A stretch of 64,000 nt of DNA from Histomonas meleagridis. Taxonomy: Eukaryota > Parabasalia > Tritrichomonadida > Dientamoebidae. The DNA lies in NCBI GenBank assembly GCA_020186115.1, contig WSYJ01000129.1:1-64000 (forward strand), in the 5' to 3' direction. This document shows positions 2,993 through 55,173 of the stretch, one piece after another (the first letter of the stretch is position 1; each line of letters opens with the position of its first letter). The notes beneath the pieces are model-generated. The model had not been told where the DNA came from. It saw only the letters and a program-made list of their open reading frames with translations, and searched no databases. The translations under genes were made by a program, and so were the position numbers.

Positions 2993-3375
2993 TTGTCTTT
3001 AAGATTTGTTGTTTTGTTTGATAACCGCAATAACCGCGCTTCTTATGTAAAAGTGTGACCGAAAACTTCTGAGTGACTTTTTGTTATATTATCGATCGGA
3101 GCTGATCGTTTTTTATTGATTTTTATGTGATTTACGTGAAAAATTTTGCCGACAAAAGTGCTTTCTGTATTCTTGCCCAATTAATCAATTACAAGGAATA
3201 CAATAATCGGAGCGAAAATGTGTGTCTGATTATAAGAAAATATGTGCTACAATAATTTATATTAAAGCGTTGAAATTAGTCAAAAAATTGTTCTAAATTT
3301 AAATAACAACATGTATACATATTACTTTATTATATACCAACAAGCTGGATCCAATTTTACAAAGGAAAGTCATAT
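2993..3375. other. intergenic region upstream of Vps45 and 3' of ankyrin gene A
   Basis: About 380 nt of AT-rich sequence. Apart from the boxes at 3021-3037 and a TCACACTTTT-like site near 3050 (minus strand), nothing recognisable is present. Confidence 0.5.
3021..3037 (-). promoter_or_regulatory. paired Myb-type boxes before Vps45
   Basis: Two copies of TAACCGC (plus strand) spaced 9 nt apart, about 30-45 nt before the Vps45 ATG. They fit the AACCGY/RCGGTT element seen before most genes of this window. Confidence 0.4.
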
Positions 3376-6300
3376 CACTTATTTAATAAATTAACAATTT
3401 CAAAATGCATATTTTCTGATGCAACCATAAGCGCTGTTTTATACAATTTGTAAAAATCCCATGCATTTCATTTAATCACTAAATATATTAAATAAACATT
3501 AACTCAAATAAATGAATATTTTTTATATTGATATCAATTCCTTTTTGCTCAAGAAGCAGTTTAACTATTTCAGTAAAGCCATATTGAGATGCACAAATAA
3601 GTGCTGTATCAAATATTTTTAGTAATTTCCGAAAATATATTTGAAACCCAAATTTTTTGAAATAATCTGTGGGAAAACGAAATTAATTCCTTTAGCATTA
3701 ACATTTATTCCTTCTTTTTCAAGAAGTAGTTTAACTATATCAGTATAGCCCTTTTTAGTTGCAAAAATTAATGATGTATTAAATATTTTACATAATTTCC
3801 AAATTTTATTTTAAAATGTTCCAAAAAAATTAAATCGATATTTAAATAAGCCAAAAAAATTTCTCGAGCATTGAAATCAATTCCGTCTTGTGCAAGAAGT
3901 ATTTTAACAATTTCTGTAAGACCATTTTCAGATGCATAAATAAGTGCCGTCATATGTATTTTGAATAATTTCCAAATGTTATTTTAAAATTTCGTTTTTA
4001 TAGAACAAATATTGAAAATATCAAAAAAATATTTTTAGCATCGAAATCAATATTTTCATCTTCAAGTAACAATTTAATTACTTCAATATGACTATATCTA
4101 GTTGCTAAAATAAGCGCTGTTTCAAATTACTTGAGAAAATTCCATGTGCTATTACAAAATATAAAATTTATATAATTTACATCAAATTAAAATAACAAAT
4201 GCCTTTAATATTGATATCAATTCTTTCATCTTCAAGAAGTAATTTAACGACTTCAGGACAACCTTTTTCTGACGCTAACATGAGTGCTGTTTCACGAAAT
4301 TTGAATATATTCCAAGTATTATTGTGAAATAAATAAGTAAAATAAATTCCAATTAAAATTTTAAAACATTTTTTGCATTGATTTCAATTTTTTCTTTTTC
4401 AAGAAGTAATTTAACAATTTTTGGTTGATTATTTTCAGCAGCCATCATAAGTATAGTTTTATGTATTTTAAATAATTCCCAGAAATTTTTTTATAATATT
4501 GTTTCTAAATATAGTGATTTAACATTTCTAATTGTAATATTTATTTTCTTTTGTTTAAGAAGTGACTTTACTATTTCTTCATGTCCTCTATTGATTGCTA
4601 ATATAAGTGATGTTTCTTATTAATTAAATCAATACCATGAATTAGTTTGAAATATTAAATTGTAAAAATAAACATCGTGTAAATTAAATATATATTTTGA
4701 GCATTTACATTTATTTTTTGTTGTTCCAAAAGTAGTTCTACGATTTCTTTTGATCCACTTTTGGATGCAAACATAAGCGCTGTATTAAAACACACAAAAT
4801 AACTCCAAATATTACATTGTAATCGTGGAAATTATAAATCTATATTAAAAATTAAAAATAATTATCTTTAGCATTAATATTCTTACATCCTTTATCAAGA
4901 AGTAATTTAACGACTTCAAAATTATCTTTTTTACATGCTATCATTAATGCTGTTTTAAATATATACAAGGAAATTTTAAATATTTTTATGAAATTAAGAA
5001 TCAGTAAGTTAAACTTTTAACAAACTAAGTAAATATCAGGTCTATTAATTTCTAAATTTTCTTGTTCAAGAAGTAATTTAACAATATTTGTCCTATTATT
5101 TTTAATTCCTATCATTAAAGCAGTACGAATATTAAGAAACAAACACCAAATATTTCCTAGAAACAAAAAATTTTAGAAATAAAGATTAAAAAATATTATT
5201 AAATGCTTTTAGCATTGATATCAATTCCTTTTTGGTCGAGAAGAAAACTTACTATTTCTATATAATCATTTTCGCATGAATACATAAGTAAAGTTTTAAT
5301 TATTCAGATAAAACTCCAAATTTTGAGATGAAAAATCAAATCATTATTATATGCATATTTTGAATTTGGATCAATTTTATACTTACTAAAAAGTAGTTTT
5401 AGAATTTCTATATTACCATATAAACATGCAATTAATGGTAAAGAGAAAATTTTGAATAAATTTTAAGTAATATATAGAAATAAAAAAAATTTAGAAGAAA
5501 CACTTTTAGAATCAACATCAATTTCTTTCCGACCAAGTAATAATTCAGCAATTTCATTGTGATTATTCATAACTGCATAAGATATAGCTGAATAAAATTA
5601 GAAAAACAAAAATTAATTATAATTTTAAAATACCAGATTATTAATATAAACATAAAATTAAACAAATATAAGGTATGAGCATTGATATTAATCATATCAT
5701 GGTCAAGAAGCAATTTAACAATATCAATGAACCCATTTTGAGAAGCTTCAATAAGTGCTGTTGAAAATGTTTTTAATTAATTTTAAATATTATTAAAAAT
5801 CATCATTCTATTAATACTATAAACATATTAACCAATAAATAAATTGTTTTAGAATTGATATTAATGTTTTTCTTGAGAAGAAATTTTACAACATCAATAA
5901 AATTATATTTAGATGCTAAAATTAGTGGCGTAGCAAAAACATAAAAAAAATTCCAAATATTAAATCAAAATTTTATGATACAAAATAAAACAAGAATGAA
6001 AAAGAAATTTTATCCTTAGCATTGAAGTCAATATTTTCTTGCTCAAGAATATAATTTATAAGTTCGAGATTTTGTGACTTTAAAGAATAAACTAAGATAT
6101 CTTTAGGTAGTTCATATACTTCTTGGAAATGCTTAACAAGATATATATTTCCAACGAAAGCAGATTTGTTTATAATAAAATCAACGTTTTCACCAATTTT
6201 TTCTTCTAGAAATGACAAAATTTCATAATTATCATAATTTATACATTCACTAATTAAGTTATTAATATTACTTAATTGAATAATATTATTTTCATAAATA

Positions 6301-7187
6301 TATTTAAAGATATCATTTTGGTGAAATTCGATTGCAGCTTCATATGATCCATCAAATGATGAATTATTTTGTTCACATAAATGAAAAATTTCAAGATTTC
6401 CACCTGCAACAGCAAATTTTCCATACGCTGATAAATTTTTTTCATTCATTTGTATAAACTTAAAACATTTAATCGATCCGAAAAATGCTGCATAATCAGC
6501 AATATTAATATGATGCCCATCATTAATAAAAGAACACCTTTCAAAAATTGATGGTTGAATAGTTTGATTAAAATCGAATTTATCTTGTAATGAAATTTCT
6601 TGTAACTTTTCTATATCGTCATTTCGTATTGCTTTTATAATATCTAATGGATTAACTCCTTCGTGTGCAAATTTTTTTTGAAGTTTCCAATTATCTTTTT
6701 GAAGATTTACATAATTTTCAACAAAAAATTCATATAAACGATAATTTTGATTTTTATATGATAAGTTTTGAAGTTCTTCTTCAGATAAACGATGTGCAAA
6801 ATATGCTGTTTGTATATATGAATTAGGACAAATTAAATTTTCTTCTAACATTGTTTCAATAAGATAATATGATTCTTGTGAATTATATTTGCTTATACAA
6901 TTATAAAAAACATCAAATATCTTAATTTCGCCTTTATTTTCAAAATTAATTTTCTCTTCTATTGTTTTCAAATATCGCAAATAAATTTTTGGTTCTTTTT
7001 TACGAGATAAAAATGAAGTATAAGTCATATGACAAATCACAAAAACAAAAGTATGTGGAAAATTGTAATCAAATAAATTCATTGTAAATTGAATGGATTC
7101 TTCAAAGTTCTCATCACCTAATTTAATTATAGTGTTTTGCAAACTCTTTAAAAAATATAAGTTCCTTTCTTCGTTTTTCTGGTACAT
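3376..7187 (-). CDS. ankyrin gene A: DUF3447 protein with interrupted ankyrin array
   Basis: First exon 7187-about 5990 (ATG at 7185-7187; an upstream TTG is not needed) encodes an N-terminal helical region followed by DUF3447, recognisable by Ser-Phe-Ile-Asn-Asp-Gly, Asp-Tyr-Ala-Ala-Phe-Phe-Gly, Ala-Val-Ala-Gly-Gly-Asn-Leu-Glu-Ile and His-Leu-Cys-Glu-Gln. About 16 further ankyrin units follow downstream, each about 29 codons (Thr-Ala-Leu-Ile...Ile-Val-Lys-Leu-Leu-Leu...Asp-Ile-Asn-Ala-Lys). They are separated by AT-rich spacers; the first is exactly 83 nt and the second is 86. Spacers hold stops and frame changes. The last unit (3376-3440) ends in a natural TGA. Some units near 5350-5600 are diverged. 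The function of this trichomonad family is unknown; ankyrin arrays usually bind proteins. Extent assumes that the units belong to one transcript. Confidence 0.65.
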
Positions 7188-7721
7188 TTTTGAAATGACC
7201 AAATAACAAACCAAAAATTGATCATAATAAACCTCAGCTCTGTATCGTCCGTTAAAAAAATAACATCAATCGTGAAACATAAACATGTAACTGGTTTACT
7301 TACACAAAATTAGAATTCAAATTTTAAAACATTTTTATTACAAAGAATGAAACCCTAAAGCAGAAGCTTTCCTGTATTGGCAGCCAATATTCAGAAAATT
7401 TCATCATCATTCGTTATACAAAATTTGAGAGACACCGATAGAAAAGTGACTGGTTTGAAGAATGAAGGGAATCTCTGTGCATAGCCACGTTCCAACAAAT
7501 AAAGTATGAATTTAACCGCATTTTTGAAACAAACATTTTTGGCCGAAAAAATTGCTTTGGCATAAAGAAATATTTCACCAGACAAAAAAAAACACATTGT
7601 CAAAAGTGACAATAGTAAACGTGCAAACTTATCATCCGATACCACTTTTTGAGAAGCATTGTCACTTTTGATAGATATTTTTTTTCTAACTTTTCAAATG
7701 TTTACTTCAAATCCATACTCC
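7188..7721. other. intergenic with initiator-like inverted repeats
   Basis: A perfect 16-nt inverted repeat, TTGTCAAAAGTGACAA, lies at 7597-7612, and an inverted partner TTGTCACTTTTGATAG follows near 7656. Both contain the TCACTTTT initiator-like core. An 84-codon minus frame (7391-7645) starts with GTG and shows no family features, so it is not called. Confidence 0.4.
7247..7255 (-). promoter_or_regulatory. Myb-type box before ankyrin gene A
   Basis: GTCCGTTAA (minus sense TTAACGGAC), 60 nt upstream of the ATG; one of the AACGG-type boxes shared by the genes of this window. Confidence 0.35.
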
Positions 7722-9172: not shown

Positions 9173-10520
9173 TTAAATAGCCTTTTCTTGTTCAAGAAGT
9201 AATTTAACTATTTCTATATGACCATTTGCAGATGCCATTATAAGGGCTGATTGAATTAATTTAAATTATTTCCAAATATTATTTTGAAATTGCAAATTAT
9301 TAATATAAATATTATCTTTAGCATTAATATCAATTCCTTTTTGTTCAAGAAGTAATTTAACGATTTCTATTTTATTATTTGAAGATGCTAACATAAGTGC
9401 TGTTTTAAATTATTTTAATAATTTCCAAATATTATTTTTATACATAAAATCATTAAAATAAATTATAAATAAATTATCTAAATATTTTTAGCATTAATAT
9501 CAATTCCTTTTTGTTCAAGAAGTAATTTAACTATTTCTGTATGGCCGTATAAAGATGCATTCATAAGTGCTGTATCAAATATTTAAAATAATTCCCAAAT
9601 ATTATTTTGAAATAACAAAATATTATGATAAAATTCAAATAAATCATTTAAAAATTTTTAGCATTAATATCAATTCCTTTTTGCTCAAGAAGTAATTGAA
9701 CTGTTTCTATATAACCAATTTCTGATGCTAATATAAATGCTGTATTAAATATTTAAAATAATTTCCAAAAAATATTTTGATGTTTCAAAATATTGTAATA
9801 GATATAAAATAAAACAAATAAATACCCTTAGCATTAACATCAATTCCTTCTTGTTCAAGAAGTAATTTCACGATTTCTGTATTTCCATTCCAAGATGCTA
9901 ATATAAATGCTGTATTAAATATTTAAAACAATTTCCAAATATTATTTTTAATTTTCATATTATTATAATAAAGTTCAAATAAATAAAACAAAAATTTTTA
10001 TCATCAATATCAATTCCTTCTTGTTCAAGAAGTAAACGAACTATTTCTATGTGATCGTTTTCTGATGCAAACATAAGTGCTGTGTTAAATATTTTAAAAA
10101 AATTCCAAATATTATTTTTAATTTTCATATTATGATAATAAATTTCAAATTAATAAAACAAAAATTTTTAGTATCAATATCAATTCCTTCTTGATTAAGA
10201 AGTATTTTAACTATTTCTGTATAACCATTATAAGATGCTAAAATAAGTGCTGTATTAAATAATTTAAATAATTTTCAAATATTATTTTGAAATATAAAAT
10301 TATTCAAAAAAATAATAAATTAAGTAAATATATATTTTTAGTGTTAATGTCAATTCCTTCTTGTTCAATAAGTAATTCAACTATTTCTGTATGACCAAAT
10401 GCAGACGCATTCATAAGTGCTGTTTGAGATAATTTAAATAATTTCCAAATATTGTTGTAGAATATCAAATTATTAAAATAAATCTTAAATAAAACAAATA
10501 AATATCTTTAGCATTAATAT
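9173..10520 (-). repeat. 170-nt periodic ankyrin-unit/spacer array
   Basis: Unit of 87 nt (29 codons) plus an 83-nt spacer, repeated seven times without length change, then a 66-nt spacer. Spacer 5' ends read RATATTTATTTG or close variants. Spacer 3' ends carry AATAATATTTGGAAATTATT at a constant distance, with TGG always 24 nt before the Thr codon. Spacer middles are AT-rich and diverged. Confidence 0.8.
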
Positions 10521-11733
10521 CAAATATATCTTTTCTTAAAATATATTCAAAGCATTCAATATTTCCTGATTTTGCAGAAAAAATTAAAACATTTTTTGGA
10601 ATATAATATTCGTCAAAGAAATATTTTGTAAGAAAAATATTTCCAATTTTTGCTGATTCATTAATAATATCATCATTAATTTCCATTCCTTTCTCAAGTA
10701 AAAACAATAAAATTTCATAATTATAATATAAAACACATTTTCTTCCTAATTTCTGTAAATCTTTAATTTTCCCAATATTATTTACATAAAGATAATGAAA
10801 AATATAATTTCGATGAAATTCAATTGCTGTTTTATATGCATCTTTAAATGTTGAATGATTTTGTTCACATAAATGAATGATTTCTTCATTTCCACCTGCA
10901 ACTGCATATTTACCTGTGTTTATTACATTTGCATTATTCATAAGTAAATATTTAAAACATTTAACTGATCCAAAAAATGCTGCATAATCAATTAATGTAA
11001 CATCATCTTCGTTAATAAATGAACATCTTTCATAAAGTGATGAATCAATTATTTGATTATAATCAAAATTTGTTTCAGTAGATATTTCTCGAAGTTTTTC
11101 TACTTCATCATTTCGAATTATTTTCGCAATTTCATTTGGATTATGTCCTTCTTTAACATATTTCTTATGAAGTTCCCAATCATTCTTTGAAAGTTCTTCA
11201 TAATTGTTAATAAAAGTTATCTCAAAAGGTTGAAAATATCTTTGTTTGCTTTCTTTTTCTGTTTTATAATGTGCAAAATATTTCGATTTATTTTTAATTA
11301 TGATATCTTTATGAACTAAATTTAGATCAATTATTTTAGCAATTAGATAGTTTGATTCTTGTGATTTAATATTGGAGATGTATTCAATAAAAAAATCAAA
11401 TATTTTGGAATTACTTTTCTTCATTTCTTCTTCTTTAACTTGAATTGATTTCAAATAATTAATATAAATAGAACTTTTGTTCTTTCGTGATACAAAAGCT
11501 AAATAAATCAATTTACTTATATTAATATTAAATGAATAAGGTAAATTTGTATCAAGTAAATCTAGAGTTTTTTGTATTAATGAGTGAAGAGTTTCTTTCG
11601 TTAAATTAAATATTATATGTTCAAGTGCAAGAAGTAATTCCAGGTAAACATTTTGACTTTTCTTTCTTTCACTTCCTCTTTTTGAATTATTTGTTGAAGT
11701 CGTTATTTGAGCTGAAGAGATGCCACCATGCAT
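9173..11733 (-). CDS. ankyrin gene B: DUF3447 protein with regular interrupted array
   Basis: The cleanest member of the family. Exon 1 (ATG 11731-11733, to about 10520) encodes a Ser/Thr-rich start, a helical region, then DUF3447 (Cys-Ser-Phe-Ile-Asn-Glu, Asp-Tyr-Ala-Ala-Phe-Phe-Gly-Ser-Val-Lys-Cys-Phe-Lys-Tyr, Tyr-Ala-Val-Ala-Gly-Gly-Asn, His-Leu-Cys-Glu-Gln). Eight ankyrin units follow. Each runs Thr-Ala-Leu to Asn-Ala-Lys in 29 open codons. Seven of eight spacers, counted from the codon after Lys to the base before Thr, are exactly 83 nt; the eighth is 66 nt. The last unit ends Leu-Glu-Gln-Glu-Lys-Ala-Ile-stop at 9173-9175. No unit contains a stop or frameshift, whereas the spacers do. 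Function unknown. The single-gene reading is an inference. Confidence 0.7.
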
Positions 11734-17050: not shown

Positions 17051-18869
17051 ATGAATAAACCAAAAATAAACGAATGGGAAGTCCTACTATTGACGAAACA
17101 AATTGTTTTTGGTTTAAATAATGAAAATATTTATCAATCAGCAATTTCAATATTTAGCATATTTGATGATATTCATCAATATTCATTTAACTTAATTATT
17201 AGCCAAATAACATATTCTATGTTTGTTATAAAAATGAGTGATGTTAATATTATATTAGAATTTTTGAGAAATATACAAGAATTGGAAGAATCCAACAAAT
17301 ACAATTATAAAGTTTTTGATGTTTTTTCTCAGTATCTTCTTAATTGCTATATACAAGAATCACGTTATCTTCTTGAACATATGATAAACCAAAATTTTAT
17401 TGAACCAAATATCATAAAAAACAAAAAAGATATATATTTTGCTCATCACTTTTCTAATGAAGAAATCAAAAATATTCGTTTTCAGAAATATCCACCATAT
17501 TGTGCTAAAGATATAAATATTCTTAAAAAAGATGATTTTAAGCTTCATAAAAAATATATTGAAGAAGGAATTAATCAAGATGCAATAACAATAGTAATTA
17601 GAAATGATGAAATCGAAAAACTTCAAGAAATATCATCTGAAACAAATTTTGACTTTAATCAAAAAATTAAACCATCACTTTATGAAAAATGTTCTTTTAT
17701 TAATAACTACTATATTACTTTAATTGATTATGCAGCATTTTTTTCATCAGTCAAATGTTTTAAATATTTACTTATGAATGGTTCTAAAGTAATAAATACA
17801 GGAAAATATGCAGTCGCAGGTGGAAATGAAGAAATTATTCATTTATGTGAACAATATCATTCATCATTTGACGATGCATATGAAACAGCAATTGAATATC
17901 ATCAAAATGATATCTTTAAATATCTTTTTGAAAATAAAATCATTGAGTTAAACTATTTAGAAGAATTAGGTAAAAAATGTGTTTTAAGTCATAACTATGA
18001 AATTTTTTCCTTTTTACTTGGGGAAGGAATGAAAATTACTGATGATATTATAAATTCATCAGCATCTATTGGAAATATTTTTCTTGTAAAACATTTTCTA
18101 AAAGAAAATCAAGTTCCAAAAAATATTTTAGGTAACTCAGTATTATCAGGAAATATTGAACTTGTAAAGTATATTCTGGAACAAAAAGGATTTGATATAA
18201 ATGCTAAAGGTATTTATTTAATGTGTTTGGTATTTATTTTGTTCATTTGTTGTTTTTATTTAATATTTGGAAATTATTTTAATCATTTGAAACACCTCTT
18301 ATGGATGCATCTTGGATTGGTTACATAGAAATAATAAAATTACTTCTAAAACAAGAAGGAATTGATATTAATGCTAAAAGTGTTTATTTATTTGAAATGA
18401 TTTTTATTGTGTTAATTTTGGATTAGTAAATAATATTTGGAAATCATTAAAATTATTTCAAACTGCGCTTTTATATGCAGCAAGAAATGGCCATATAGAA
18501 ATAGTTAAATTACTTCTTGAACAAAAAGGAATTGATATAAATGCTAAAGATGTTTAAATGTTTTATTTAAAATTTGTTTTAAATTTTTGGAGTTTTAAAA
18601 TTATATTTGGAAATTGTTCAAATCATTTAAAACTGCGTTAATGAAAGCAATTCAAAATGGTCATAAAGAAATTGTTAAATTACTTCTTGAACAAGAAGGA
18701 ATTGATATTACCATTGAAGATATTGGTTTAAATTATTTAAAATTTATTTGAATGATTTAATATCTCATAACAAATTATGGAATTCGCTCATAAAATTTCA
18801 TACAGCAAAATGATTGCGTCAGGAAATGGACTTTCGGAAATAGCGGAATTATTTACTGAATACAAATAA
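17051..18869 (+). CDS. ankyrin gene C: DUF3447 protein with four spacer-separated units
   Basis: Exon 1 (17051-about 18210) carries the helical N-terminus and DUF3447 (Cys-Ser-Phe-Ile-Asn, Asp-Tyr-Ala-Ala-Phe-Phe-Ser-Ser-Val-Lys-Cys, Tyr-Ala-Val-Ala-Gly-Gly-Asn-Glu-Glu, His-Leu-Cys-Glu-Gln). Four ankyrin units follow near 18293, 18466, 18636 and 18806. All four spacers measure exactly 83 nt although their middles differ. The last unit reads Met-Ile-Ala-Ser-Gly-Asn-Gly...Glu-Tyr-Lys-stop (18867-18869), but one base is missing in its A-run after Thr-Ala, so this unit is frameshifted at its start. The family function is unknown. Grouping the units into one gene is inferred from order, orientation and the terminal stop. 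Confidence 0.65.
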
Positions 18870-18934
18870 ATATTTCATTAATTAAACAATTTATAGTGTT
18901 AATATTTTTATTTATTAAATTTAATAATTTATTT

Positions 18935-26657: not shown

Positions 26658-26915
26658 ATTTAAAACAAGATGAAATATTATGCGTATAAATAATAAAATA
26701 ATAATTTAGAATATCAAAAAAACAATTTTTATTTGTATGTTTCTTTATATTCAACATCCATAAATATATGTTATTATCAAAGTGCATTTAAAATAATATG
26801 AAATATGATGCGTATAAATAATAAAATAATAATTTAGAATATCAAAAAAAACAATTTTTTTATTTGTATGTTTCTTTTTATTTGTTAGCTATAAATTTAT
26901 GCTATTACCAAAGTA
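26658..26915. repeat. 128-nt tandem duplication
   Basis: Two adjacent copies with a period of 128 nt. Both contain TGCGTATAAATAATAAAATA (at 26681 and 26809) and then ATTTAGAATATC, an A-run, and TTTGTATGTTTCTTT. They differ by small changes and A/T-run lengths. Located 3' of the Miro-like gene; no coding frame. Confidence 0.75.
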
Positions 26916-27047
26916 CATTTATCTGTATATGTTATTTTTTATTCAATAATATATAAATACGCTTTGTTCCGTTACTTCCCATAAATTTTTTGTATAAAAG
27001 GACGACAGAACAAGTAAAAAAGTGTACCTTTATTGTAAGCGGTTGTT

Positions 27048-29026: not shown

Positions 29027-31062
29027 TTGGGAAACCAACAAAGCAATAATTCAACCAAAAATTCAGACAAAAAGAAATTAAATCAAATCGCAAATAGTAA
29101 GGATGTAGAAATTTTAAAAATGCCCAATGGAATTCAAGAAATTTATTTAAAATTTCAAACGATCAAATCTATAATTATTAATTTAAATGAAGAAAACATG
29201 TCAACATCAACACCCTTAATCATGGGTTTGTATGATATCAATTATCCGTACTCTTTTAATTTGGTTATTAGTCAATTAATTTATACGTCATTTGTATCAC
29301 AAAAAAAAGATTTTAATATTTATTTCCAATTTATGAAAGAAATTGAAGAGAAAGAAGAAATCACTAAAAATGATAATAAACTTATTAATATTTTTATTGC
29401 ATTAATTCTTAAAAAATATACACAAGAATCATTTTATCTTCTCGAAAAATTTATAGAATTACAATATATTAAACCAAAAATTGTATACAAAAAATCACTA
29501 AATTTCTTACATTATTTAAAAGTAAAAGGAATCAAAAACATTAATTTTTATTTACCCTTTTCAGGTTACTATAAACAACATTATAAAAAACTTTCAAAGA
29601 ATGATTGGGAACTTCATAAACAATTGTTAAAAAAAGGAGTTAATCCAAATGAAATTTCAAAAATAATTCGAAATGATGAAATAGAGAAACTTCAAGATTT
29701 ATCGTCACAAGATGATTTTAATTTTAATCAAACAATTGAACCATCGCCTTATGAAAGATGTTCATTTATTAATAAAGAAAATGTTTCATTAATTGATTAT
29801 GCTGCATATTTTTCTGCAGTTAAATGTTTTAAATATTTACTTATGAATGGTTCTAATGTAAATAATACAGCTAAATATGCAATTGCAGGTGGAAATCTTG
29901 AAATCATTCATTTATGTGAACAAAATCATTTATCATTTAAACAAACAATTGATATTACTATTCAATATCATATAAATGAAGTTTTCCATTATCTTTATGA
30001 AAATAAACTTTATGAAGATATGGAATTAGAATTAATACAAAAGAAATGTATAATGTATTATAACTATGAAATCCTTTTGTTTTTGTTGGAAGAAGGAATG
30101 AAGTTTTCGATTTCTTTTCTAAATGAATTTGCAAAAATTGGAAATATGTTTATTCTTAAGCCTTTTATTGAAGAAAAACTATTTCCAAATGATGTTTTGG
30201 TTTATTCTTCAATGTCAGGAAACATTGAACTTGTAAAATGTATTCTTGATCAAAAAGTAATTGATATTAATTCTAAAAATATTAAATTTTTTTTGATTTA
30301 TTGTCTATTTTTATAATATGCTATTTTAAAATAATGTTTGGAAATTCTTTAAAATATTTAATACTGCACTTATTTCAGCATCTGAATATGGTCACTCAGA
30401 AGTAGTTAAATTACTTCTTGAGCAAAAAGGAATCGATATTAATACTAAAAATCGTTTTGAACTTAATGATTTCAAGCTTTAAAATAATATTTGGAAATTA
30501 TTTTAATTATTTTTTACAGCATTCATGTATGCATCTAAAAATGGTCATACAGAAGTCGTTAAATTGCTTCTTGAACAAAAAGGTATTGATATTAACATGA
30601 AAAATATTAATTTGTTTGTTTTCAAATTAATTGATATAATTTTGGACATCACTTATGTTTGCTTCTAAAAATGGCCACTCAGAAGTAGTTAAATTACTTC
30701 TTGAACAAAAAGGAATTGATGTTAATGCAAAAGATATTTATTTGTTTGATTTAGGATTTATTTTAATAATTTGAAATTTTAGAATAATATTTGGGAATTA
30801 TTTAAATTATTTTGGACAGCAATTAAGTTAGCATCTAAAAATAGTCACTCAGAAGTGGTTAAATTACTTGGTGAACATGAAAGAATTGATATTAATGTTA
30901 AAAATATTTATTTGTTTTATTTGATATTTATTTGAATAATTTAATATTTAAAATTAATATTTGGTATTTATTTAAATTATTTCGAACTTACTTACAATAG
31001 CATTAGAAAAAGATTTTTCTGAATTAGTAAAATTGATAAATGAGAAAAAAGAAGGAGAATAA
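29027..31062 (+). CDS. ankyrin gene D: DUF3447 protein, altered start, interrupted array
   Basis: The frame opens at 29027 with TTG followed by Gly-Asn-Gln-Gln-Ser, which would be a classic N-myristoylation start if the first codon were ATG; the next in-frame ATG is 29120. Exon 1 contains the helical N-terminus and DUF3447 (Cys-Ser-Phe-Ile-Asn-Lys-Glu, Asp-Tyr-Ala-Ala-Tyr-Phe-Ser-Ala-Val-Lys-Cys, Ala-Ile-Ala-Gly-Gly-Asn-Leu). Five ankyrin units follow near 30363, 30528, 30652, 30826 and 30983. Spacer lengths are 85, 66, 43, 83 and 82 nt; the 43-nt one has lost the TGG motif. The last unit ends Asn-Glu-Lys-Lys-Glu-Gly-Glu-stop at 31060-31062. Function unknown. Confidence 0.6.
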
Positions 31063-32123
31063 ACAATGTATATTATTCAATAATGTGAATAAATATTCAA
31101 AAATCCAATTATATAAGATTTTATCAATGTATAATAAAAAATGTTTATATAAGTGATAAAAAGCACATGCTTGAATAATATTATTTGTTATTTTTGATTT
31201 AGTGCATAAAGCAGGGTTAGAAAATGTAAGCGAATTAGAAAATGTGTTATTATTTATTAATGCATTTGGGTTAGAAAATATGTTTGATAGAAGGCATTCA
31301 TCGTTTATTGCTCCTTTAGTAATATTAGGTTTGATATAATTCTGACTATATAACTAATGTTGTATTTACTCTATTAAATGTATCATTTTGTATTTATATT
31401 TAATTTCTCAATTAAAATGAATATAATTTAGGATGTTCAATTACTAAATGCATAGAAATCAATATAACTAACATTTTCAGATATAAAAACCATTCTAATT
31501 TAGTACTACAATTTGTTTAGTAAAATAAATTTACTTGAGTGTTTGAATTAAGAATAGTAAACATCTTACTATTCCATTGAAATAATTGATAAATTGAAGA
31601 TTATATACTTATTTCGATCACTTGAATATTTCTATTTTTCTGTCAATTTTATTTACAATATCAAATTTGTGATATGTAAACAAATAAAAGAATAAGTATC
31701 TATATTTTTTGATTAATGAATTTTTATTTTTAAGTTTAATCTTCAAATACATTTAATTAAGTATGTACGAGTTCAGTTTGTATTAATGTTTCGAATCCAT
31801 AATGATGGATTGGCTCGTTATTATTTAGCCAATTCATTACCATATACCAAATTATCTCTATTTTATTAATCAGCTTAAAAAGTCATTTAATCGAATGAAA
31901 TTTCTTTAAAAATAATATTCTTTTTAATATATATAATTTTAACATAATAAAATTAATATTAAAATGAAATCTTAGATTTGGAGAATATTTCCAACTATAA
32001 ACTTAAAAACATTTGTTGCACACTAATTCTAATCCATTCGAATTTATTTTTAAGAACCAAAAGAAGTATATTCATATTTCACGTCAAATCGAAAGAGAAA
32101 CATTTATTGGGACAATATGTTTA
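31063..32123. other. intergenic with one surface-protein relic
   Basis: About 1.06 kb with no intact gene; it holds the relic at 31205-31300. Confidence 0.5.
31205..31300 (-). pseudogene. relic of Ser/Thr-Phe repeat of a BspA-like protein
   Basis: On the minus strand this reads Asn-Ile-Phe-Ser-Asn-Pro-Asn-Ala-Leu, then Asn-Asn-Asn-Thr-Phe-Ser-Asn-Ser-Leu-Thr-Phe-Ser-Asn. This is the same hexapeptide style as the Asn-Thr-Phe-Ser-Xaa-Ser stalk of the BspA-like gene at 52 kb. No leucine-rich part or membrane segment is attached. Confidence 0.4.
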
Positions 32124-35589: not shown

Positions 35590-37780
35590 TTATAACCAAT
35601 TAATTATTTTTCGCTTTAATAATTTGACTATTTCTGTGTAGCCATTTTTAGTAGCAATTCCAAGTGCTGTTTCATATTGTTTATATAATTACCAAACATT
35701 ACAACTATGCCTCAAATTTTTAATATAAATATCATAAAATAACAAATAAATATTTTTCACATTAATATCAATTTTTTTTTGTTCAAGAAGTATTTTTACT
35801 ATTTTTATTTGACCATTTTCAGATGCAAATATTAATGCTGTATTATACATATAAAATAAATTCCAAAAATCATTATAAAATATCAAATTATTAATATAAA
35901 TATTATATGAAACAAATAAATATTTTTAGCATTTATTTCGATACCTTTTTGTTCTAAAAGTAATTTTACTATGTCTGTATTATCAATTTGAGATGCATAC
36001 ATAAGAGCAGTACTAAATAATTTGAATAATTTCTAAATAATGTCAATATTCTCCAAATTCCAAAATAAAATATAAAAAAATTAAAATAAATAATATCTTG
36101 TACAAATAATCTTTAGCATTAATATTAATCCCATTTTGCTCAAGAAGTAATTTAACTATTTCAATGTGATTATATATAGATGCAAAAAACAATGGAGTCC
36201 AAAACGATTTGAACAATTTCCAATAACTTTTTTAAAACCAAAAATTATTTAGCCAAACTTCAAACAAAGGAAACAAATACTTCCAGCATTTATATCAATA
36301 CCATTTTGTTTAAGAAGTAATTTAGCTATTTCAATATATCCATTGTTTGATGCTTTCATTAGTGCAGTTTCATAACTTTAAAGGAATATCCAAATATTAT
36401 TTTGAAATTTCATAAGAAGAAAAACAAAATCAAACAAAACAAATAAATATCTTTAGCATTAATATTAATTCCATTTTGCTCAAGAAGTATTTTAACGATA
36501 TCTGTATGTCCTTTTTCAGATGCAATTATAAGAGGTGTATAAAATAATTCGAATAATTCCCAAATTAAATTATGAAATAGAAATATTTCTAAAAAGACAT
36601 TATTTTTAGCATTTATATCAATTTTTCCTTCTTGTTCCAAAACATATTTAACGAGTTCAATATTTCCTGATTCTGAACAAAAAAGTAAAATATTTTTTGG
36701 AATCAAATCTTTCTTAAGGAAATATTTAATAAAAAATATATTTCCAATTTTTGCCGATTCATTTATCATTGAATCATTAATTTTCATTCCTTCTTCAATC
36801 AAAAATGTAAAAATTTCATAATTATGATATAAAACACATATTTTACCTAATTCTTCTATATTATTAATTTTTAAAATTTTATTTTCATGTAAATAATGAA
36901 AAATTTCATTTCGATGAAATTTAATTGCAATTTCATATGCACCTTTAAATGACAAATGATTTTGTTCGCATAAATGAAATATTTCAAGATTTCCACCTGC
37001 AATTGCATACTTCAATGTATTTATTAATTTAGAATTATTTAATAATAAATATTTAAAACATTTAACTGATCCAAAAAATGCTGCATAATTAATTAATGAA
37101 ACATTTTCTTCATTAATAAATGAACATCTTTCATAAAGTGATGGTTTAATTATTTGATTAAAATTAAAACTTGTTTGCGATGATATCTTTTGTAGTTTTT
37201 CAATGTTATCATTTCGGATTATTTTTGCAATTTTATTCGGATTAATTCCTTCTTTAACATATTTCTTTTGAAGTTCCCAATCGTTCTTTCTCAGTTCTCC
37301 AATGTTTCCTAGAATTTGTAACCACGCAATATCTGGATTTTGCATTATTTTAATTTCTTCATCAGACATATAATGGACAAAATATGGCTTCTTTTTGCTT
37401 TTTATAATATTAGATTCAATCAAATTTTGTTCAACCATTTTCTCAAGAAGATAACTTGATTCTTGTGTATCATTATCAAAAAGAATATTGATAAATACTT
37501 TTAAAATTTTTGGACTAATTTTTTTATTTTCCTCAAAAATTTCAATTTCTCTTATAAGATCCAAATATATATCAAAATAATTCATACCTAATATAAAGGT
37601 CAAGTATACCATATGGCTAACAATCATGTTAAAAGATATTGGATTATTTTCATCAAATTTGTTGATTATCAAATTGGCCATTTGATTAATATTTCCAATA
37701 TCAGTATCAAAAATTATTTTTTTGATTGTCAAAAGCGTTTCCCATTCTTTCTTGAATTTTTGATTTGTAATTTCTTTCAT
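35590..37780 (-). CDS. ankyrin gene E: DUF3447 protein with six spacer-separated units
   Basis: Exon 1 from ATG 37778-37780 (a GTG four codons earlier is not needed) contains the helical N-terminus and DUF3447 (Cys-Ser-Phe-Ile-Asn-Glu-Glu, Asn-Tyr-Ala-Ala-Phe-Phe-Gly-Ser-Val-Lys-Cys-Phe-Lys-Tyr, Tyr-Ala-Ile-Ala-Gly-Gly-Asn, His-Leu-Cys-Glu-Gln). Six ankyrin units follow near 36540, 36370, 36200, 36010, 35840 and 35680. The first spacer is 66 nt and happens to be open in frame; the second is 83 nt. The last unit ends Lys-Arg-Lys-Ile-Ile-Asn-Trp-Leu-stop (35590-35592). Each unit has the Thr-(Ala/Pro)-Leu start and Ile-Val-Lys core. Function unknown. Confidence 0.65.
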
Positions 37781-38006
37781 TAAGGAAAACACCTCGTTTT
37801 TTATGAAAGTTAATAAAATTGTACCGCTAAAACGATTATAATGGACTGAAATCTAAATTTGAAAAAGTTCAAAGTTTACAGCGTTGTAAGACAAATTAAA
37901 AACTTTATTAACGTAAATATGCAACTGTCAAATTTGTCAAAACTTCATTGACTAACTCTGTTTTAAATTATTAAAAAGTGTCAATATAATCTAAACCAAT
38001 TACATC

Positions 38007-42225: not shown

Positions 42226-45200
42226 TTAATAATCACCAAACCCGAAACCGAAACTTAATGGATTTGGATGCGCGAGTTTATTATTACCGAAATCAAATGT
42301 ATTTGTAACATTAACTTCCTCATCGAAAATTATATCCTTTTGTTTTTTAAGTAATTCGAATATTTCTATAGATTTCTGATTATCACTCCGATGTAAATTT
42401 GCAATCATAATTGCTGTTTTACCTTCATAATTTTTATCATTTAATTTTATTCCATTTTGTTGAACAAGAAATTCTACGATTTCATAATGAGAATTTTGAA
42501 CAGCCCCCATTAAAGAATTCATAAATAACATAAACAAATTCCGAATTAAATAAAGAAATATCAAATAATTATAACACATATTATTCTTTTGATTAATATC
42601 TATTTCACTATGTTCAAGTAATAATTTAACAGTATCTAAATGACCATTAAAACATGCACACATAAAAGCAGTACCAAAACAATTAATTAATTTCCAAATT
42701 TTATTATTAATTTCCATTTTTTATATAGGAATATAATATATATATAATAAATACCATGAAAGTTAATATCAATTTCTTTATGTTCAAGTAATAATTGAAC
42801 AATATTTGTTCTTCCTTCCATACATGCGACCATTAAAGGTGTATAAAATAGATAAATTTAATTCCAAATACTAATTTAAAATAGAAATAATTTAAATGAA
42901 TTATATAATAAAATGAATTAACAGATTTTATATTAACATTTATATCTTTATTATCAAGAATTAACTTAAAAATTTCATATTGATTTTTATGAACTAAATC
43001 AACATCGGTTTTATAATATTCAAATAAATTAAAAAAATACTATCGAATGGTCCCATGAAATTATAAAATAAACTCCAAACATATGAAATAAATATATTTA
43101 CCCGGCATTTTAAAAGGATGATCTTCCTTAAAATATTTATTCATGAATTGTTGTTGATCTTTTGAAGATGCCATTAAACATTTATTAAATATTATAAATA
43201 AATCATTTAAAATATAAACAAAATTTAAATCAATGAAATAAACATCGAAAAAATGAAACAAATTCTAACTAAGTGATTATATTTTGGATCATATGAATGA
43301 TTTTTTCCAATATTAATATTATAACACATTTTATGAAGCACGCTTTCAAATGATTTATAGAAATTCCAAATATTGTTATAATATTTTAATATTCTTTACA
43401 TTAAAATTAATTCCTTTTTGTTCTATAAGTAATTTAGAAATTTCAAGATAGCCTGCAATCATTGCATACATTAATGGTGTACCAAATATTTAAAATATAT
43501 TTCAACAAATATTCTAATAGAATAGATAATATATAAAATAAATATCTATGAAATTAATATCAATATCTTTTTGTTCTAGTAATAATTTAACGATTTCAAT
43601 ATAATTATTTCGTACTGCAAAAGTTAAAGCTGTTTCAAATAAATTAAATGATTACCAAATATCAAAATAAAACAAATAATTATTAAATTAAATTTTAATA
43701 CAAATTATTAAATAGTTCGAGCATTAACATCAATTCCTTTTTGTTCAAGAAGTAATTTTACTATTTCTGTATGACCTTTCCATGTTGCATATATTAAAGG
43801 AGTTTCAAAATATTAAAAAGAAATAAATTTCCATTTAATATGTTAATATTAATTGCTTCGAAACTAAGAAGAATTTTTACAAGTTCAATATTACCATTAT
43901 TACATGCATAAAATAATGGTGTTGAAAAAACAAATAATAAATTCCAAATTTTATAATAAAACTTCAAATTAATGAATTAAATAATATATAAAATTATAAA
44001 ATATCGACAATATTTACATTTATATCCTTTTGCTTCAAAAATAATTTAACTACTTCTATATGATCATTTTCGGTTGCGATGATTAATGCAGATTTTCCTT
44101 GAATATTTTGTTGGTAAATATCAATTCCTTTTTGTTCAAGAAGTAATTTAACTATTTCAATATTTCCTATTTCAGATGCAATCATAAGTGGTGTATTAAA
44201 TAGTTTAAATAATTTCCAAATATTAATCCAAAATATTAAATTATTTATATAAATTCTAAACAAAACAAATAAACATTTTTAACATTAATATCAATTCCAT
44301 TTTGTTCAATAATTAATTTAACTATATTTAAGTTACCTTTTAAAGAAGCTGAATGAAGTGCTGTACGAAATAATATAAATAATTTCCAAATATTATTTCG
44401 AAATATAAAATTAAAAAAACAAATAAATAAAACAAATAAATTCTATCCTGAAAGTTAACATCAATTCCTTTTTGTTCAAGAATCAACTTAGCCATTTCAT
44501 AATCATTATATTCGCAAGCACAAATTAAAGGAGTTTTATAAAAACATTAAATAACACTATAAAATATTCTTAAGAAACTCGAAATCAATAAAATTAAACA
44601 TCATAAATATTAACATTTATGTTCTTTCGAGATAGAACATATTTGACAAGTTCAATATTATGTGAAGAAACAGAATAAGCAAAAGCTTCACTTGGAATAT
44701 CTTTTTCATCGAAAAGATATTTTATCAAAAATAAGTTTCCACTTATGAATAATTCTTCAATGATTGATTCATTATATTCAAATCCTTGATTCTCCATGAA
44801 TGAAAATATTTCGAAATTATTATATTGAATAGATTTAATAACAATTGAAGTAAATAACATATTTTTACATTCTTCATCAGTTAAAATTTGTTGATTGTTA
44901 TGAACAAATGAAAAACTTGACTTATAAGGTTTCGATTTGAAATCAAAATATTTCATTTTTATTGACAATTTAAAATTTTTACGTTCCTTATGATAATATT
45001 TAAATATATTATTTTCATAAAGGTAATAAAAAATATTATTCCGATGATATTTAACTGCATCTTTATATGAATCCCTAAAAGTTGTACCATTTTGTTCACA
45101 TAAATGAAATATTTCGATGTTTCCACCTGCAACTGCATAATTTCCAGCGAATTGGATATCAGAACCATTTAATAACAAATATTTAAAACATTTAATTGCG

Positions 45201-45940
45201 CCATAAAAAGCAGCATATTCTATTAATGTAATTCCATGTTCTTCATCATATCTAAAACATTTACTAAATTGCTCATATATTGATGGCGTTATATGTTGAT
45301 TAAAATCAAATTCTTTTCCCGATGTTAATTTTTGAAGTTGTTCTACATCATCATCACGTATTGCCTTTGATATTTCTGATGGATTTCCTTCAGCAATATT
45401 AATTTTATGTTTCTCAAATTTATTTTGTCTATTTATTACTATAAAATCTTTTAAATTATTTTGGTTATTCTGTCTACTCCAATAAAGTGTTGATATTCCA
45501 CGTTCTTCTAATTCTTTAAGTTGTTCTTCTGTTAATAAATGTGCAAAATATTGGGAATCAAGTTTAGAAACGTTGTCGGAACTAATTAAGTTTTTTTCAA
45601 TTAAAATAGCTAAGAAATATTTCGATTCTTTAGAACGTAAATATAATAATTCACCTTTTAATAGTTGAAATATATGCGGATTGACTTTAAGTATTTCTTC
45701 TTCTTTCTTCTCGATATTTTGTAAATATTCGATATAAATATTTATATCTTTCCGTTGTGAAATAAATGATGAAATTGTATTTCCAATTAAAACAATATTA
45801 AATGAAAGTGGAAAATTTTCATCAAATAATTTCATCGTTAATTCAACAGTCATTTGAAGATTTCCTTGATCTAATTCAAGTACTAAGTCTTTTAAGTCTT
45901 GTAAATACTTAATTTCTTCTTTAGGGCTTCTGCTATGCAT
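42226..45940 (-). CDS. ankyrin gene F: DUF3447 protein with long, partly uninterrupted array
   Basis: Exon 1 (ATG 45938-45940 to about 44600) has the helical N-terminus and a DUF3447 with an insertion of about 30 residues before the last helices. About twelve ankyrin units follow to 42226. Most are separated by AT-rich spacers, but two junctions lack a spacer: at about 44100 Tyr-Gln-Gln-Asn-Ile-Gly-type Asn-Ile-Gln-Gly-Lys-Ser-Ala-Leu, and at about 42430 Lys-Asn-Tyr-Glu-Gly-Lys-Thr-Ala-Ile. Both show the normal Xaa-Xaa-Gly-Lys-Thr turn that spacers replace elsewhere. Units between 42900 and 43350 are degraded. The last exon (about 42226-42540) ends in a unique tail with Phe-Gly-Phe-Gly-Phe-Gly-Asp-Tyr. 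Extent as one gene is inferred. Confidence 0.55.
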
Positions 45941-51876: not shown

Positions 51877-53868
51877 TTAAATATGTCTAAATTTCTTTTC
51901 TTTGAAATCAACTGCGAATGGATCTTCTTCAATTTTCGAGATATCTATTGATAAGTTATTCATTGAAATATCAAAGTTATCATTATCAACATTTCCTTCT
52001 TTCATACTTTCTGTTTCATTCCTTCGTTTTTTATGAATAATTAATATTATAGATATTATAACAATGATAATTACTACTACACAAACGCAAGCGATAATTA
52101 TAATAATTTGTTTGTTATTCATATTGTTATTATTGTCATTCATTTCATTTTGTTTTATAATCGTATAAAAACCTGTATAATATGAAATGTATGAAGAATA
52201 TTCAATAATTATATATTCATAATAGATAAATAATGTTTTAACATAATAATACGAAGAATTAATGAACGAAAGAGAAATAGTATTTGTAGTCACAGTTTTG
52301 GGGATAATTGTTTGCGTAATGGATTGCGTAATGAATAATGTATGAACAAAAGACGCATCAGATTGCAGTGACTGTGTAAATGTATTTGAATTTGTAAAAG
52401 CATTAAAATTAGAAAATGTTAATGTTTGTGTATACGTGTTAGAAAACGTGTTTGTCTTAGTAAATGTGTTTGATTCTGAATATGAATTAGAATTAGAAAA
52501 TGTATTACTCTGAGAATATGTGTTCGATTGTGAAAATGTATTTGATTCAGTAAATGTATTCGATTGTGAAAATGTATTTGACTTAGTAAATGTACTCGAT
52601 TGCGAAAATGTATTTGACTTAGTAAATGTACTCGATTGTGTGAATGTGTGCGTTGGCCAGGGATATTGATCGCATCCTTCGATCGATGAACCTTTCGATA
52701 CGGAAAGAGATCCAAACGTTTCATCCTCATACAAATCTGATGTCATAACATATTGCGCTGGAACATCTGAAAATGCATTTGAACTTATATCTGTTGGCGA
52801 TTTATTGCCTGTGAAATAAATACATTTTAACTTGGTACAAAATTGAAATGCATAATCTCCAATTGATGCAACATTTTCACCAATTTTAAACGTTTCTAAA
52901 ACAACACAACGTGAAAATGCATAATCTCCTATTGTTGCAACATTTTCACCAATTTTATTCGTTACTAAATAAATACAATAAAAAAATGCATTATCTCCAA
53001 TTGTTGTTACATTTTCGCTAATTTTTACTGTTTCTAATTTCCTACAATATGCAAATGCATTACTTCCGATTGATGTAATTGAATTTGGTATTATGAAATT
53101 TACGAATGATTCGCATTCATAAAATACATAACTTTCAATTGTTGTAACTAAATTTGGAAATGTAAAATCAGTTAATGCTGTACAACCACTAAATGCAAAA
53201 CTTCCAATTGATGTAACTGTATTTGGTATTGAAATACTTACTAATGATGCACATTGATAAAATAGAGAACTTGCAATTGAAGTAATCGAATTTGGCATTG
53301 TAATATTAACCATTGATGCACACGAAGAAAATGCATAACTTCCGATTGATGTAACTGAATCACTAATAATGGCTGATTTAAGTAAAGGCCATTCCTCAAA
53401 AGCATAATCATCGATTTCTTCAACACCATTTTCAATAATAAGATAATGTGCTTGAGATCTATATGTATTTCTTTCAGAATATTCACTTAAAGATGAAATA
53501 GTGAGCGTTTTAGTTGATGAATCAAACGCTTCAAAAGATTTCATAAAAAAGAGAAAAAACAAAAGCAGAAAAATTTTGTTTTTAAAGTTTTCTTTTTTGT
53601 AATTCTTTCGCTTTAGTAAATTTAAATTAACCAAAATAACTTTTAGCAAATAATAAAAACATGAAAATATATATATCGTAAAACAGGGGTGTAAAATGAT
53701 ATTATGTAATGCATTAATAATGTAATTATTATCGATAAAATTTCGTATTGTTAGAATAGATATTTTGGACAAAAAAATTTGTTCAATGTAATTATGGTTT
53801 GAAGAATTGTGATAAAATAGATGAAAATAATTAGATAAAAAGTGAGTATTAATGTTTTGTTTTACCAT
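51877..53868 (-). CDS. BspA-like leucine-rich-repeat surface protein
   Basis: A 663-residue membrane protein of the trichomonad BspA/TpLRR type, thought to mediate contact with host or bacteria. A hydrophobic stretch (Ile-Phe-Leu-Leu-Leu-Phe-Phe-Leu-Phe-Phe, about residue 100) precedes Lys-Ser-Phe-Glu-Ala-Phe. LRR_5 repeats then cover about 130-375 (Ile-Gly-Ser-Xaa-Ala-Phe...Cys-Xaa-Xaa-Leu and Ile-Gly-Asp-Xaa-Ala-Phe). A Ser/Thr/Asn/Phe stalk (about 395-480), a membrane helix with Ile-Ile-Ile-Ile-Ala-Cys-Val-Cys (about 590-612) and a short cytoplasmic tail with Asp-Pro-Phe-Ala-Val-Asp follow. The 95 residues before the first hydrophobic stretch are unusual; the true start may lie later, but no other ATG gives a signal peptide. 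Confidence 0.85.
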   Translation of the reverse strand: MVKQNINTHFLSNYFHLFYHNSSNHNYIEQIFLSKISILTIRNFIDNNYIINALHNIILHPCFTIYIFSCFYYLLKVILVNLNLLKRKNYKKENFKNKIFLLLFFLFFMKSFEAFDSSTKTLTISSLSEYSERNTYRSQAHYLIIENGVEEIDDYAFEEWPLLKSAIISDSVTSIGSYAFSSCASMVNITMPNSITSIASSLFYQCASLVSISIPNTVTSIGSFAFSGCTALTDFTFPNLVTTIESYVFYECESFVNFIIPNSITSIGSNAFAYCRKLETVKISENVTTIGDNAFFYCIYLVTNKIGENVATIGDYAFSRCVVLETFKIGENVASIGDYAFQFCTKLKCIYFTGNKSPTDISSNAFSDVPAQYVMTSDLYEDETFGSLSVSKGSSIEGCDQYPWPTHTFTQSSTFTKSNTFSQSSTFTKSNTFSQSNTFTESNTFSQSNTYSQSNTFSNSNSYSESNTFTKTNTFSNTYTQTLTFSNFNAFTNSNTFTQSLQSDASFVHTLFITQSITQTIIPKTVTTNTISLSFINSSYYYVKTLFIYYEYIIIEYSSYISYYTGFYTIIKQNEMNDNNNNMNNKQIIIIIACVCVVVIIIVIISIILIIHKKRRNETESMKEGNVDNDNFDISMNNLSIDISKIEEDPFAVDFKEKKFRHI
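52440..52650 (-). repeat. 18-nt stalk repeat in the BspA-like gene
   Basis: Tandem hexapeptide repeats of the pattern Ser-Asn-Thr-Phe-(Ser/Thr)-Xaa, about 11 copies, 18 nt each. Blocks such as Ser-Thr-Phe-Thr-Lys-Ser are identical between copies, suggesting recent unequal exchange. Confidence 0.75.
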
Positions 53869-55173
53869 TTCCGAAAATTTTTGAGTGACGTTCAAAACTG
53901 TCAACTCAAAGCTTTGAAATCAAATCTAATAGAATTTATCAATGCTTTACATAGATAAACATGTCACTTCATAAACCAGAAATTTTCAAAAAGTTAATCA
54001 TAAAATAAGTTTTTCCCAACTTAACACATTCTGCTTTGAACTGTTTATCCAAAAAATGACATTGTCACTTTTCCCTCTCAGAAAAAAATATGCAAGAAAT
54101 CACCATGATTTACATCAGGTTCATTTTTTCTCATGTTTATTTTGTGAATAAAAAGGCCCAGAAAAGTATTCTTACTGTGGCTGCTATTTATTCTTGGTTC
54201 ATTACTGCTATTCAAATTGAATTTAATTAATCTCTTCGAATTAACAGCATCTTTAGCTTTTGTTCTGTCTTTACGAATTTAACTTTTCTAATGATAAAAG
54301 AAATATTTTCGAGATTTAATATTGTGTTCACCATTGTGATTTGTTATAAATTTCAAAAGATTACACCAATAACCGTAGTCAAAAGAAGTGATTGCGCTTA
54401 ATCACACAAGTTTTGAGGAATCAAAAGCACGTTTATTTTTTCTTGACGGTTTGACTTGAAGACATGATAAATAACATTATCATTACAAGTGTTTCTTCTT
54501 TCATTTTTTTCGATAAATTCATTTGTTTTATCTGAATAATTAATACAACATGCAATGAAAATACATTAACTGTAATTGAACTTGGTATTTTGTTTGTTTT
54601 AGAAGTAATATATCTTGAATATAACAAATGATTGTTGAATAATTTCTGTAGTGTGTAATTTATTTATAATTGTTAATGAATCCATATATGATTGTGAATC
54701 TTCATTTCATTTTTTATCCACTAAAATATAATGTTATCCCTCTAAATATTTGTATATCCTTCATTGATATTTATTTATATATTTTTTTTTTTTATTTGAG
54801 GAATGTGATAAAAAAAGGAAGAACTTGAATGTAATTTATATAAATTATATGGATAAGAGAGGTAATAATTGAATCACCCTCAGTAAGCATCAAGAAAAAA
54901 ACTTATATAGAAAATTATTCCTAGTGAATAAAGGAGAATTTTTGATATTTTAAACCACAAACACAGAATTGAAAAATAAAATTATTAATGATATATATTT
55001 TATAAATTTAGAGACTAATGTGAAATTTTTTCCAGAAACTGCCAGTTTTTTAACTACTCAAAATTTGGGCCGCCCCATTATCGCATACCACAACCGTCCA
55101 TTTAACAGCCCTTTCAATTTTGGCTCCGATAGAAAATTTGTAATCTTCAAGCCGTCGAGACGAAACAAACAAA
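53869..55173. other. 1.3-kb gene-free region
   Basis: Upstream of both the BspA-like gene and the C2 gene. TGTCACTTTTCCC near 54063-54075 is initiator-like. A T-run lies at 54782. No gene, relic or structured RNA recognised. Confidence 0.5.

Follow-up and report, generated by a model that had tools for sequence, protein, structure and literature searches.

How is a gene read whose ankyrin units are parted by spacers of 83 nt, a length that is not a multiple of three? The question is raised by gene B, carried on the minus strand of a 64,000-nt stretch (hereafter the window, C67:1-64000) of the genome of the poultry parasite Histomonas meleagridis. Gene B runs from 11733 to a stop codon at 9175-9173 and its ankyrin units start at 10590, 10423, 10253, 10083, 9913, 9743, 9573, 9403 and 9250. 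The first-pass annotation had counted seven of its eight spacers at 83 nt and the last one at 66 nt, and these lengths stand when counted from the Lys that ends each unit. Our results suggest that each spacer is a ladder of ankyrin linker codons parted by 17-nt inserts, and that the inserts would be removed from the primary transcript as ultra-short non-GT-AG introns, leaving exons of a single codon (we put the probability of this reading at roughly 0.6). The codon-ladder architecture itself probably holds, whichever of RNA removal, ribosomal bypass or DNA elimination takes the inserts out. Genome-wide searches were run on an H. meleagridis assembly of 43.28 Mb in 121 contigs. GC content of the window is 29.0%, and a virulent strain is given as 43.4 Mb with 28.66% GC in an excerpt of PMC8529796. 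The same source mentions deposited genomic reads and a published transcriptome (Mazumdar et al. 2017).

In an 83-nt spacer, the ankyrin beta-turn linker (D-x-x-G-x) is present as five codons, successive ones being parted by an AT-rich insert of 17 nt, which gives 5x3 + 4x17 = 83. The codons, which we call slots, occupy positions 1, 21, 41, 61 and 81 of the spacer, and 66-nt spacers contain three inserts. The earlier description of the spacers as non-coding blocks was therefore right in that something is left out, but not in the uniformity of the block, since codons and 17-nt inserts alternate with one codon every 20 nt. In the same way, the TGG that had been noticed 24 nt before the Thr codon is composed of the last T of insert 3 and the GG of the conserved Gly codon, and its distance is fixed because that codon sits at slot 4.

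Spacer lengths come from 39 records, namely the window plus 38 loci, picked for ankyrin matches and together providing 337 junctions. Among the 308 spacers of 20-110 nt, 212 measure exactly 15+17k nt, where about 6% would be expected, and 276 fall into the length classes permitted by 3 to 7 linker codons, against an expected 29%. When slot codons are counted, the linker has five codons in 231 of the 337 junctions, as in ankyrin repeats of ~33 residues with D-x-x-G-x-T-A/P-L. Linkers free of inserts are mostly of five codons too, like the interrupted ones (NIQGK, DKNGF, DNDGK); ten such contiguous linkers were found, and NIQGK, with 0 inserts, lies in gene F between the units at 44194 and 44092.

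The register of the slots is sharply defined. In 88 distinct 83-nt spacers, Gly is found at slot 4 in 77% and Asp or Asn at slot 1 in 68%, and none of the 440 slots is a stop; in 20 other registers, Gly at slot 4 does not exceed 5%. The diverged genes D and F behave similarly: of 16 spacers, 14 have Gly at slot 4, compared with 0 or 1 in each of 19 other registers. Placing the insert boundaries one base further left was also considered and rejected: it keeps the Gly but turns Trp slots into Cys (13 W + 12 C, against 23 W + 2 C in the register retained, 154 spacers).

Slots also vary as codons do. When the register was set from the inserts alone, in the window and 28 loci, 197 ladders with 1,017 slots were obtained and the sole stop belongs to a match in locus L013 that runs antisense to the array there. 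The inner slots contain no stop (0/623), where base composition predicts 62. Genome-wide, the 26-nt context TAATTT-slot-ATATGTTTTAATAATTT holds TAA or TGA 3 times and GAA or GGA 857 times. In 13 long ladders (161 20-mers), the three slot positions depart from the commonest base in 41, 52 and 22% of cases and the insert positions in 0-5%, a contrast that is partly built in because the chains required inserts within 4-5 mismatches of the consensus. Even so, codons change, though not into stops, between inserts that stay constant. Architecture, register and selection on slots and units as codons are supported directly by the sequence; that the inserts are skipped we infer from the slots being stop-free codons in one register.

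Could the whole 83- or 66-nt block instead be removed as one intron per spacer, leaving repeats of 29 residues and a slot pattern that is a relic? This would be simple, with a single cut per junction, and in the window the blocks do begin past the end of one unit and stop before the Thr/Ser of the next. Moreover, two profiles, Ank_2 for gene E and ANK_LRRK2, score better without the slot residues. We nevertheless consider this explanation improbable: the slots shun stops, and their Gly and Asp/Asn stay in a single register. Where a linker has one insert, its remaining codons are contiguous (e.g. DENG[17]N in locus L004, the bracketed number being the insert length), and the ten contiguous linkers have five codons, as the interrupted ones do. 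Most scores against ankyrin profiles and solved ankyrins drop when the slots are omitted. With Pfam Ank, gene B reaches 234.4 bits with slot residues, 188.6 without them and 195.2 when read 8 nt off-register, and gene E 148.5, 125.0 and 125.5 bits, respectively; the solved ankyrin 4rlv gives 265.5 bits with and 140.6 without slot residues, in a comparison made without an off-register control. A single 83-nt intron per junction was therefore rejected, as it fails to account for stop-free, in-register slots and for single-insert linkers.

The units between the ladders look translated, as the first-pass annotation had thought. A search with a DNA profile of open units yielded 382 matches, 339 with good cover, of which 333 are open, 3 have a broken frame and 3 contain a stop; under independent column variation ~39% of units would carry one. 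The other two frames have stops in 321 and 335 of 336 units. When inserts are omitted, 309 of the 337 junctions are open, a figure that speaks for the units only, because the parse barred stops inside linkers. By eye, 16 of the 28 remaining junctions are last units with their own stop. Alternatively, the arrays could be decaying, with untranslated tandem 170-nt copies lying downstream of a complete gene, and a ratio pN/pS near 0.84 between nearest units and the stops in some arrays would fit this. We hold it to be slightly less plausible still than one intron per spacer: open units and stop-free slots are not what sequences free to collect stops would display. Units of gene D agree at 43% of residues on average and at 62% of bases, yet are still ankyrin-like, and their differences fall at the three codon positions as 540/317/644, the second changing least; its inserts share 53%, slightly above the 42% expected from composition. 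The suggestion that the downstream units are not translated is contradicted by the open units, by slots that avoid stops and by 16 junctions leading, as judged by eye, into a last unit with its own stop.

The ladders are spread through the genome. A pattern for the linker tail (end of insert 3, GGA and insert 4), allowing up to 2 mismatches, matches 3,477 times genome-wide and never in the reversed-pattern control, so that, together with the spacer lengths, the pattern is far from chance. In the first 30 loci cut from this list, all on contig C1 and partly in the same arrays, slot 5 and then an ankyrin unit follow in 30/30; 28 of these units are open, 1 has a stop like that of a last unit and 1 an internal stop. 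A second subfamily, with a two-slot pattern, has 1,469 exact matches and 0 in the control. As there are at least 3,477 tails and each covers parts of two inserts, several thousand inserts exist at least; with a mean of 3.55 per junction, the total is perhaps about 12,000. In kinase genes, 126 of 133 matches are free of stops and 7 contain them (132 of 635 candidates were scored, with no wider survey of other genes), which implies that the inserts are not spread over all genes. No report of such inserts was found, by title or beginning of the abstract, among the open-licence papers listed, and one may exist elsewhere.

What are the inserts? In the parse of the 337 junctions, 1,172 of 1,197 are of 17 nt, within the 15-17 nt range of ultra-short introns, and since a few 18-nt inserts recur, this length is not absolute. 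The 489 distinct inserts are asymmetric between strands (T 57%, A 34%), begin with a purine in 445 cases and end with a pyrimidine in 463. In genes D and F, the consensus of 87 distinct inserts is near R-T-T-T-A/C-T-T-T-N-W-A-W-T-A-Y-T-Y. The 17-nt inserts are outside the ordinary intron class. Introns are scarce in H. meleagridis, 573 being predicted in the virulent strain according to the excerpt of PMC8529796. Five ordinary introns were found here (loci L069, L070, L071, L074, L075), of 57 to 301 nt, bearing CTAAC, with the form GTATGT...CTAACACA(C/T)AG. Three of them were located via the 3′ motif, and L074 and L075 via kinase matches independent of it. L071, L074 and L075 are kinase genes whose reading frame runs on across the intron; of the 7 stop-bearing kinase matches one was read, on C112 (L075), together with partial matches on C27 (L074) and C103 (L071), and all three have canonical introns. 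Three of the ordinary introns share one position in related kinase genes. The genome also contains a 2,333-aa frame with a match to Prp8 (PROCN). ACTAACACACAG sites number 3, against 2 in the control, and each of the 3 has GTATGT upstream. Ordinary trichomonad introns had been tried as an explanation of the inserts and rejected, with 0 matches to GTATGTN{10,40}ACTAACACACAG, a pattern whose gap is too short for the introns found later.

In the mechanism that we propose, the finished protein would keep the five linker codons (D/N-x-x-G-x, before Thr-Ala-Leu) and not the 17-nt inserts that part them. The inserts (about R-TTT-A-TTT-N-W-A-W-T-A-Y-T-Y, phase 0) would be cut from the RNA, with exons down to one codon, either by a spliceosome used in a relaxed way or perhaps by a distinct activity that cuts and ligates. 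Tandem duplication of the 170-nt ankyrin unit has probably carried the ladders along, and they probably gain or lose steps of 20 nt (codon and insert) or 17 nt (insert). RNA removal is preferred because on the sense strand the inserts are rich in U and their ends, though weak, are consistent, because introns of 15-17 nt are in print elsewhere (excerpts of PMC9505925 and PMC10245619), and because a codon-match test of ribosomal bypass fails.

In such a bypass, the inserts would be kept in the messenger RNA and the ribosome would hop 17 nt after each linker codon. Slots that act as codons and inserts without ordinary splice signals are compatible with this, and bypass elements are known elsewhere (PMC8211752, excerpt). 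However, the take-off codon and the triplet before landing are identical in 19 of 1,138 cases, where shuffling gives 21.2, so that re-pairing of the peptidyl-tRNA as in T4 is unsupported. Folding of 40 spacers gives a mean z of +0.26 with an approximate shuffle, no sign of RNA structure, and long ladders would need dozens of consecutive hops. To our knowledge there is no case of bypass in a nuclear gene. We judge bypass unlikely, although it is the strongest of the alternatives. A structured RNA element was rejected on the same folding value and on the Rfam search, which gave 0 matches at gathering score in the window.

Alternatively, programmed DNA elimination before transcription, like that of the internal eliminated sequences of ciliates, could remove inserts that are precise, numerous, AT-rich and placed between codons. 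Weighed on the assembled genome only, this is the least credible explanation of all, with very little probability: the strand asymmetry of the inserts suggests a signal in RNA, and we know of no separate somatic genome in trichomonads.

Several observations weigh against removal of the inserts from RNA. Their ends are indeed unlike those of trichomonad introns, as the first-pass annotation had remarked: GT...AG is found in 1 of the 489 distinct inserts (GT start in 74, AG end in 5), CTAAC in 0/489, and they have no 3′-fused branch site (ACTAACACACAG-like), in contrast to the five ordinary introns of the same genome. Up to 45 inserts follow each other with one-codon exons, which is hard to fit with spliceosome assembly. 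An internal stop is present in 12/337 junctions, as judged by eye. The ratio pN/pS is 0.835 in 96 nearest unit pairs, and recent selection on the units is therefore weak. The share of 17-nt inserts leans upward because the parse penalised other lengths. Finally, Ank_2 gives gene E 149.0 without the slot residues against 141.5 with them, and ANK_LRRK2 gives gene B 38.8 without and 26.0 with them, and gene E 24.3 without, this gene being unlisted with them. Protein-database relatives, described below, may add a further point.

These properties can be compared with those of known systems. Spliceosomal introns of Stentor coeruleus are of 15-16 nt and AU-rich (excerpt of PMC9505925) and those of Mikrocytos of 16-17 nt (excerpt of PMC10245619). 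The Histomonas inserts resemble them in size class and narrow length range, but the GU...AG ends of those introns are almost never found in the inserts, which moreover are one codon apart and are seen only in ankyrin linkers. In Trichomonas vaginalis, type B introns of about 23-26 nt have variable ends, and all 63 introns are GT/AG with the branch site fused to the 3′ motif, as stated in the excerpt of PMC12316389; shortness and variable ends are common to type B introns and inserts, whereas the GT/AG ends and the fused branch site are absent from the latter. Introns of the T. vaginalis type are present elsewhere in the Histomonas genome. Hopping over non-coding stretches is described for T4 gene 60 and for the byps of Magnusiomyces mitochondria (in the part of PMC8211752 consulted), and the likeness is that non-coding stretches are skipped between codons of one gene. 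The Histomonas ladders differ by the lack of a take-off/landing match and of any hairpin sign, by a single codon between elements and by their location in nuclear genes.

On balance, a dedicated RNA-level or ribosomal process probably omits thousands of 17-nt AT-rich non-GT-AG elements, one per codon, beside the ordinary spliceosome. If true, skipping of inserts at one-codon density would break the expectations that one codon is below the smallest practical exon, that introns have GT-AG-like ends and that Histomonas has few introns. It would also mean that a large gene family is misannotated, its proteins being cut off after the first repeats.

DUF3447-ankyrin proteins of other trichomonads have the same N-terminal DUF3447 block followed by ankyrin repeats, and relatives are found in Tritrichomonas foetus and T. 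vaginalis. The T. foetus protein P0014, known here from the protein listing alone, is one protein of 661 aa with several repeats, unlike the interrupted Histomonas genes. Eleven proteins of the European Nucleotide Archive (ENA; P0001-P0011), from contigs of 1.3-2.4 kb, have 45-57% identity to the N-terminal block of gene B. Nine of the 11 stop within about 35 residues past the first linker codon, while P0005 reads through one contiguous linker and stops after the second, and P0008 stops before any linker. P0005, the one compared with this genome, has a best identity of 60%. These eleven proteins may originate from a related species, and the early ends of nine of them may reflect the same interruptions there. 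If the contigs are complementary DNA (cDNA), inserts stay in some RNA, the further point announced above. The conceptual array of gene B has no close match in the protein database, the best identity being 55% among the best 120 of 5,338 matches.

The coordinates of gene B and of the other ladder genes of the window are collected in the Table. The first junction of gene B fell below the score filter of the junction parse and is not among the parsed junctions.

Table. Parts of gene B and other ladder genes of the window (one-letter slot residues; [17], insert of 17 nt).
Feature	Position	Strand	Basis
Gene B, first coding block: N-terminal part, DUF3447 and first ankyrin unit, ends ...DINAKD	10504..11733	-	ORF (open reading frame) 10465-11733; Pfam DUF3447 and Ank; alignment with relatives P0001-P0012
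Gene B, ladder 1 (83 nt), GAT[17]AAG[17]GAT[17]GGA[17]CAA = D-K-D-G-Q, then T-A-L	10424..10506	-	read by eye in tested register
Gene B, ladder 1 inserts	10503-10487, 10483-10467, 10463-10447, 10443-10427	-	
Gene B, ankyrin unit, 29 codons, open	10337..10423	-	
Gene B, ladder 2 (83 nt), N[17]I[17]Y[17]E[17]N	10254..10336	-	junction parse
Gene B, ankyrin unit	10167..10253	-	
Gene B, ladder 3, N[17]E[17]E[17]G[17]N	10084..10166	-	junction parse
Gene B, ankyrin unit	9997..10083	-	
Gene B, ladder 4, N[17]E[17]E[17]G[17]N	9914..9996	-	junction parse
Gene B, ankyrin unit	9827..9913	-	
Gene B, ladder 5, G[17]Y[17]E[17]G[17]N	9744..9826	-	junction parse
Gene B, ankyrin unit	9657..9743	-	
Gene B, ladder 6, N[17]E[17]V[17]G[17]D	9574..9656	-	junction parse
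Gene B, ankyrin unit	9487..9573	-	
Gene B, ladder 7, N[17]I[17]Y[17]G[17]K	9404..9486	-	junction parse
Gene B, ankyrin unit	9317..9403	-	
Gene B, ladder 8 (66 nt), DN[17]A[17]G[17]Q; inserts 9310-9294, 9290-9274, 9270-9254	9251..9316	-	junction parse
Gene B, last ankyrin unit and stop codon	9173..9250	-	
Gene D, DUF3447 ORF (5973-7214) and ankyrin array with diverged ladders; last-unit stop at 3377-3375	3375..7214	-	ORF list, Pfam, junction parse
Gene A, DUF3447 ORF and units at 18122, 18292, 18462, 18632; ladders GGVGE, SDWGQ, DKGGK	17051..18870 (end approximate)	+	ORF list, Pfam, parse
Gene C, DUF3447 ORF and units at 30191, 30363, 30516, 30646, 30816; ladders with 2 to 4 inserts	29027..31063 (end approximate)	+	ORF list, Pfam, parse
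Gene E, DUF3447 ORF and units 36694 to 35670; ladders with 3 to 5 inserts	35590..37792 (end approximate)	-	ORF list, Pfam, parse
Gene F, DUF3447 ORF and units 44689 to 42402; linkers with 1, 3, 4 inserts	42226..45940 (end approximate)	-	ORF list, Pfam, parse

The 170-nt period is found in six genes of the window, and 29 of the 49 junctions parsed there are 170 nt apart. Outside the window, three loci display unusual ladders. Locus L004 (G000:C55:498684-501971) is a conventional ankyrin gene whose linkers are mostly contiguous, with lone 17-nt inserts at two junctions that may be early stages of insert gain. Locus L017 (G000:C120:2311500-2318500), on the minus strand at about 2278, has 45 inserts in succession, and its slot codons translate into a stretch in which E, V, G and I abound and higher-order repeats occur. 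On the plus strand of locus L019, at the unit at 3637, GGA and AAT are parted by an 8-nt piece instead of the fourth insert, and the unit that follows is still open.

The window also contains repeats of other kinds. Tandem repeats of 18, 36, 69 and 72 nt at 52462-53360 lie in one open frame, that of a BspA-type leucine-rich repeat gene (51877-53904, minus strand), and a 128-nt AT-rich repeat is present in two copies between ORFs at 26658-26921.
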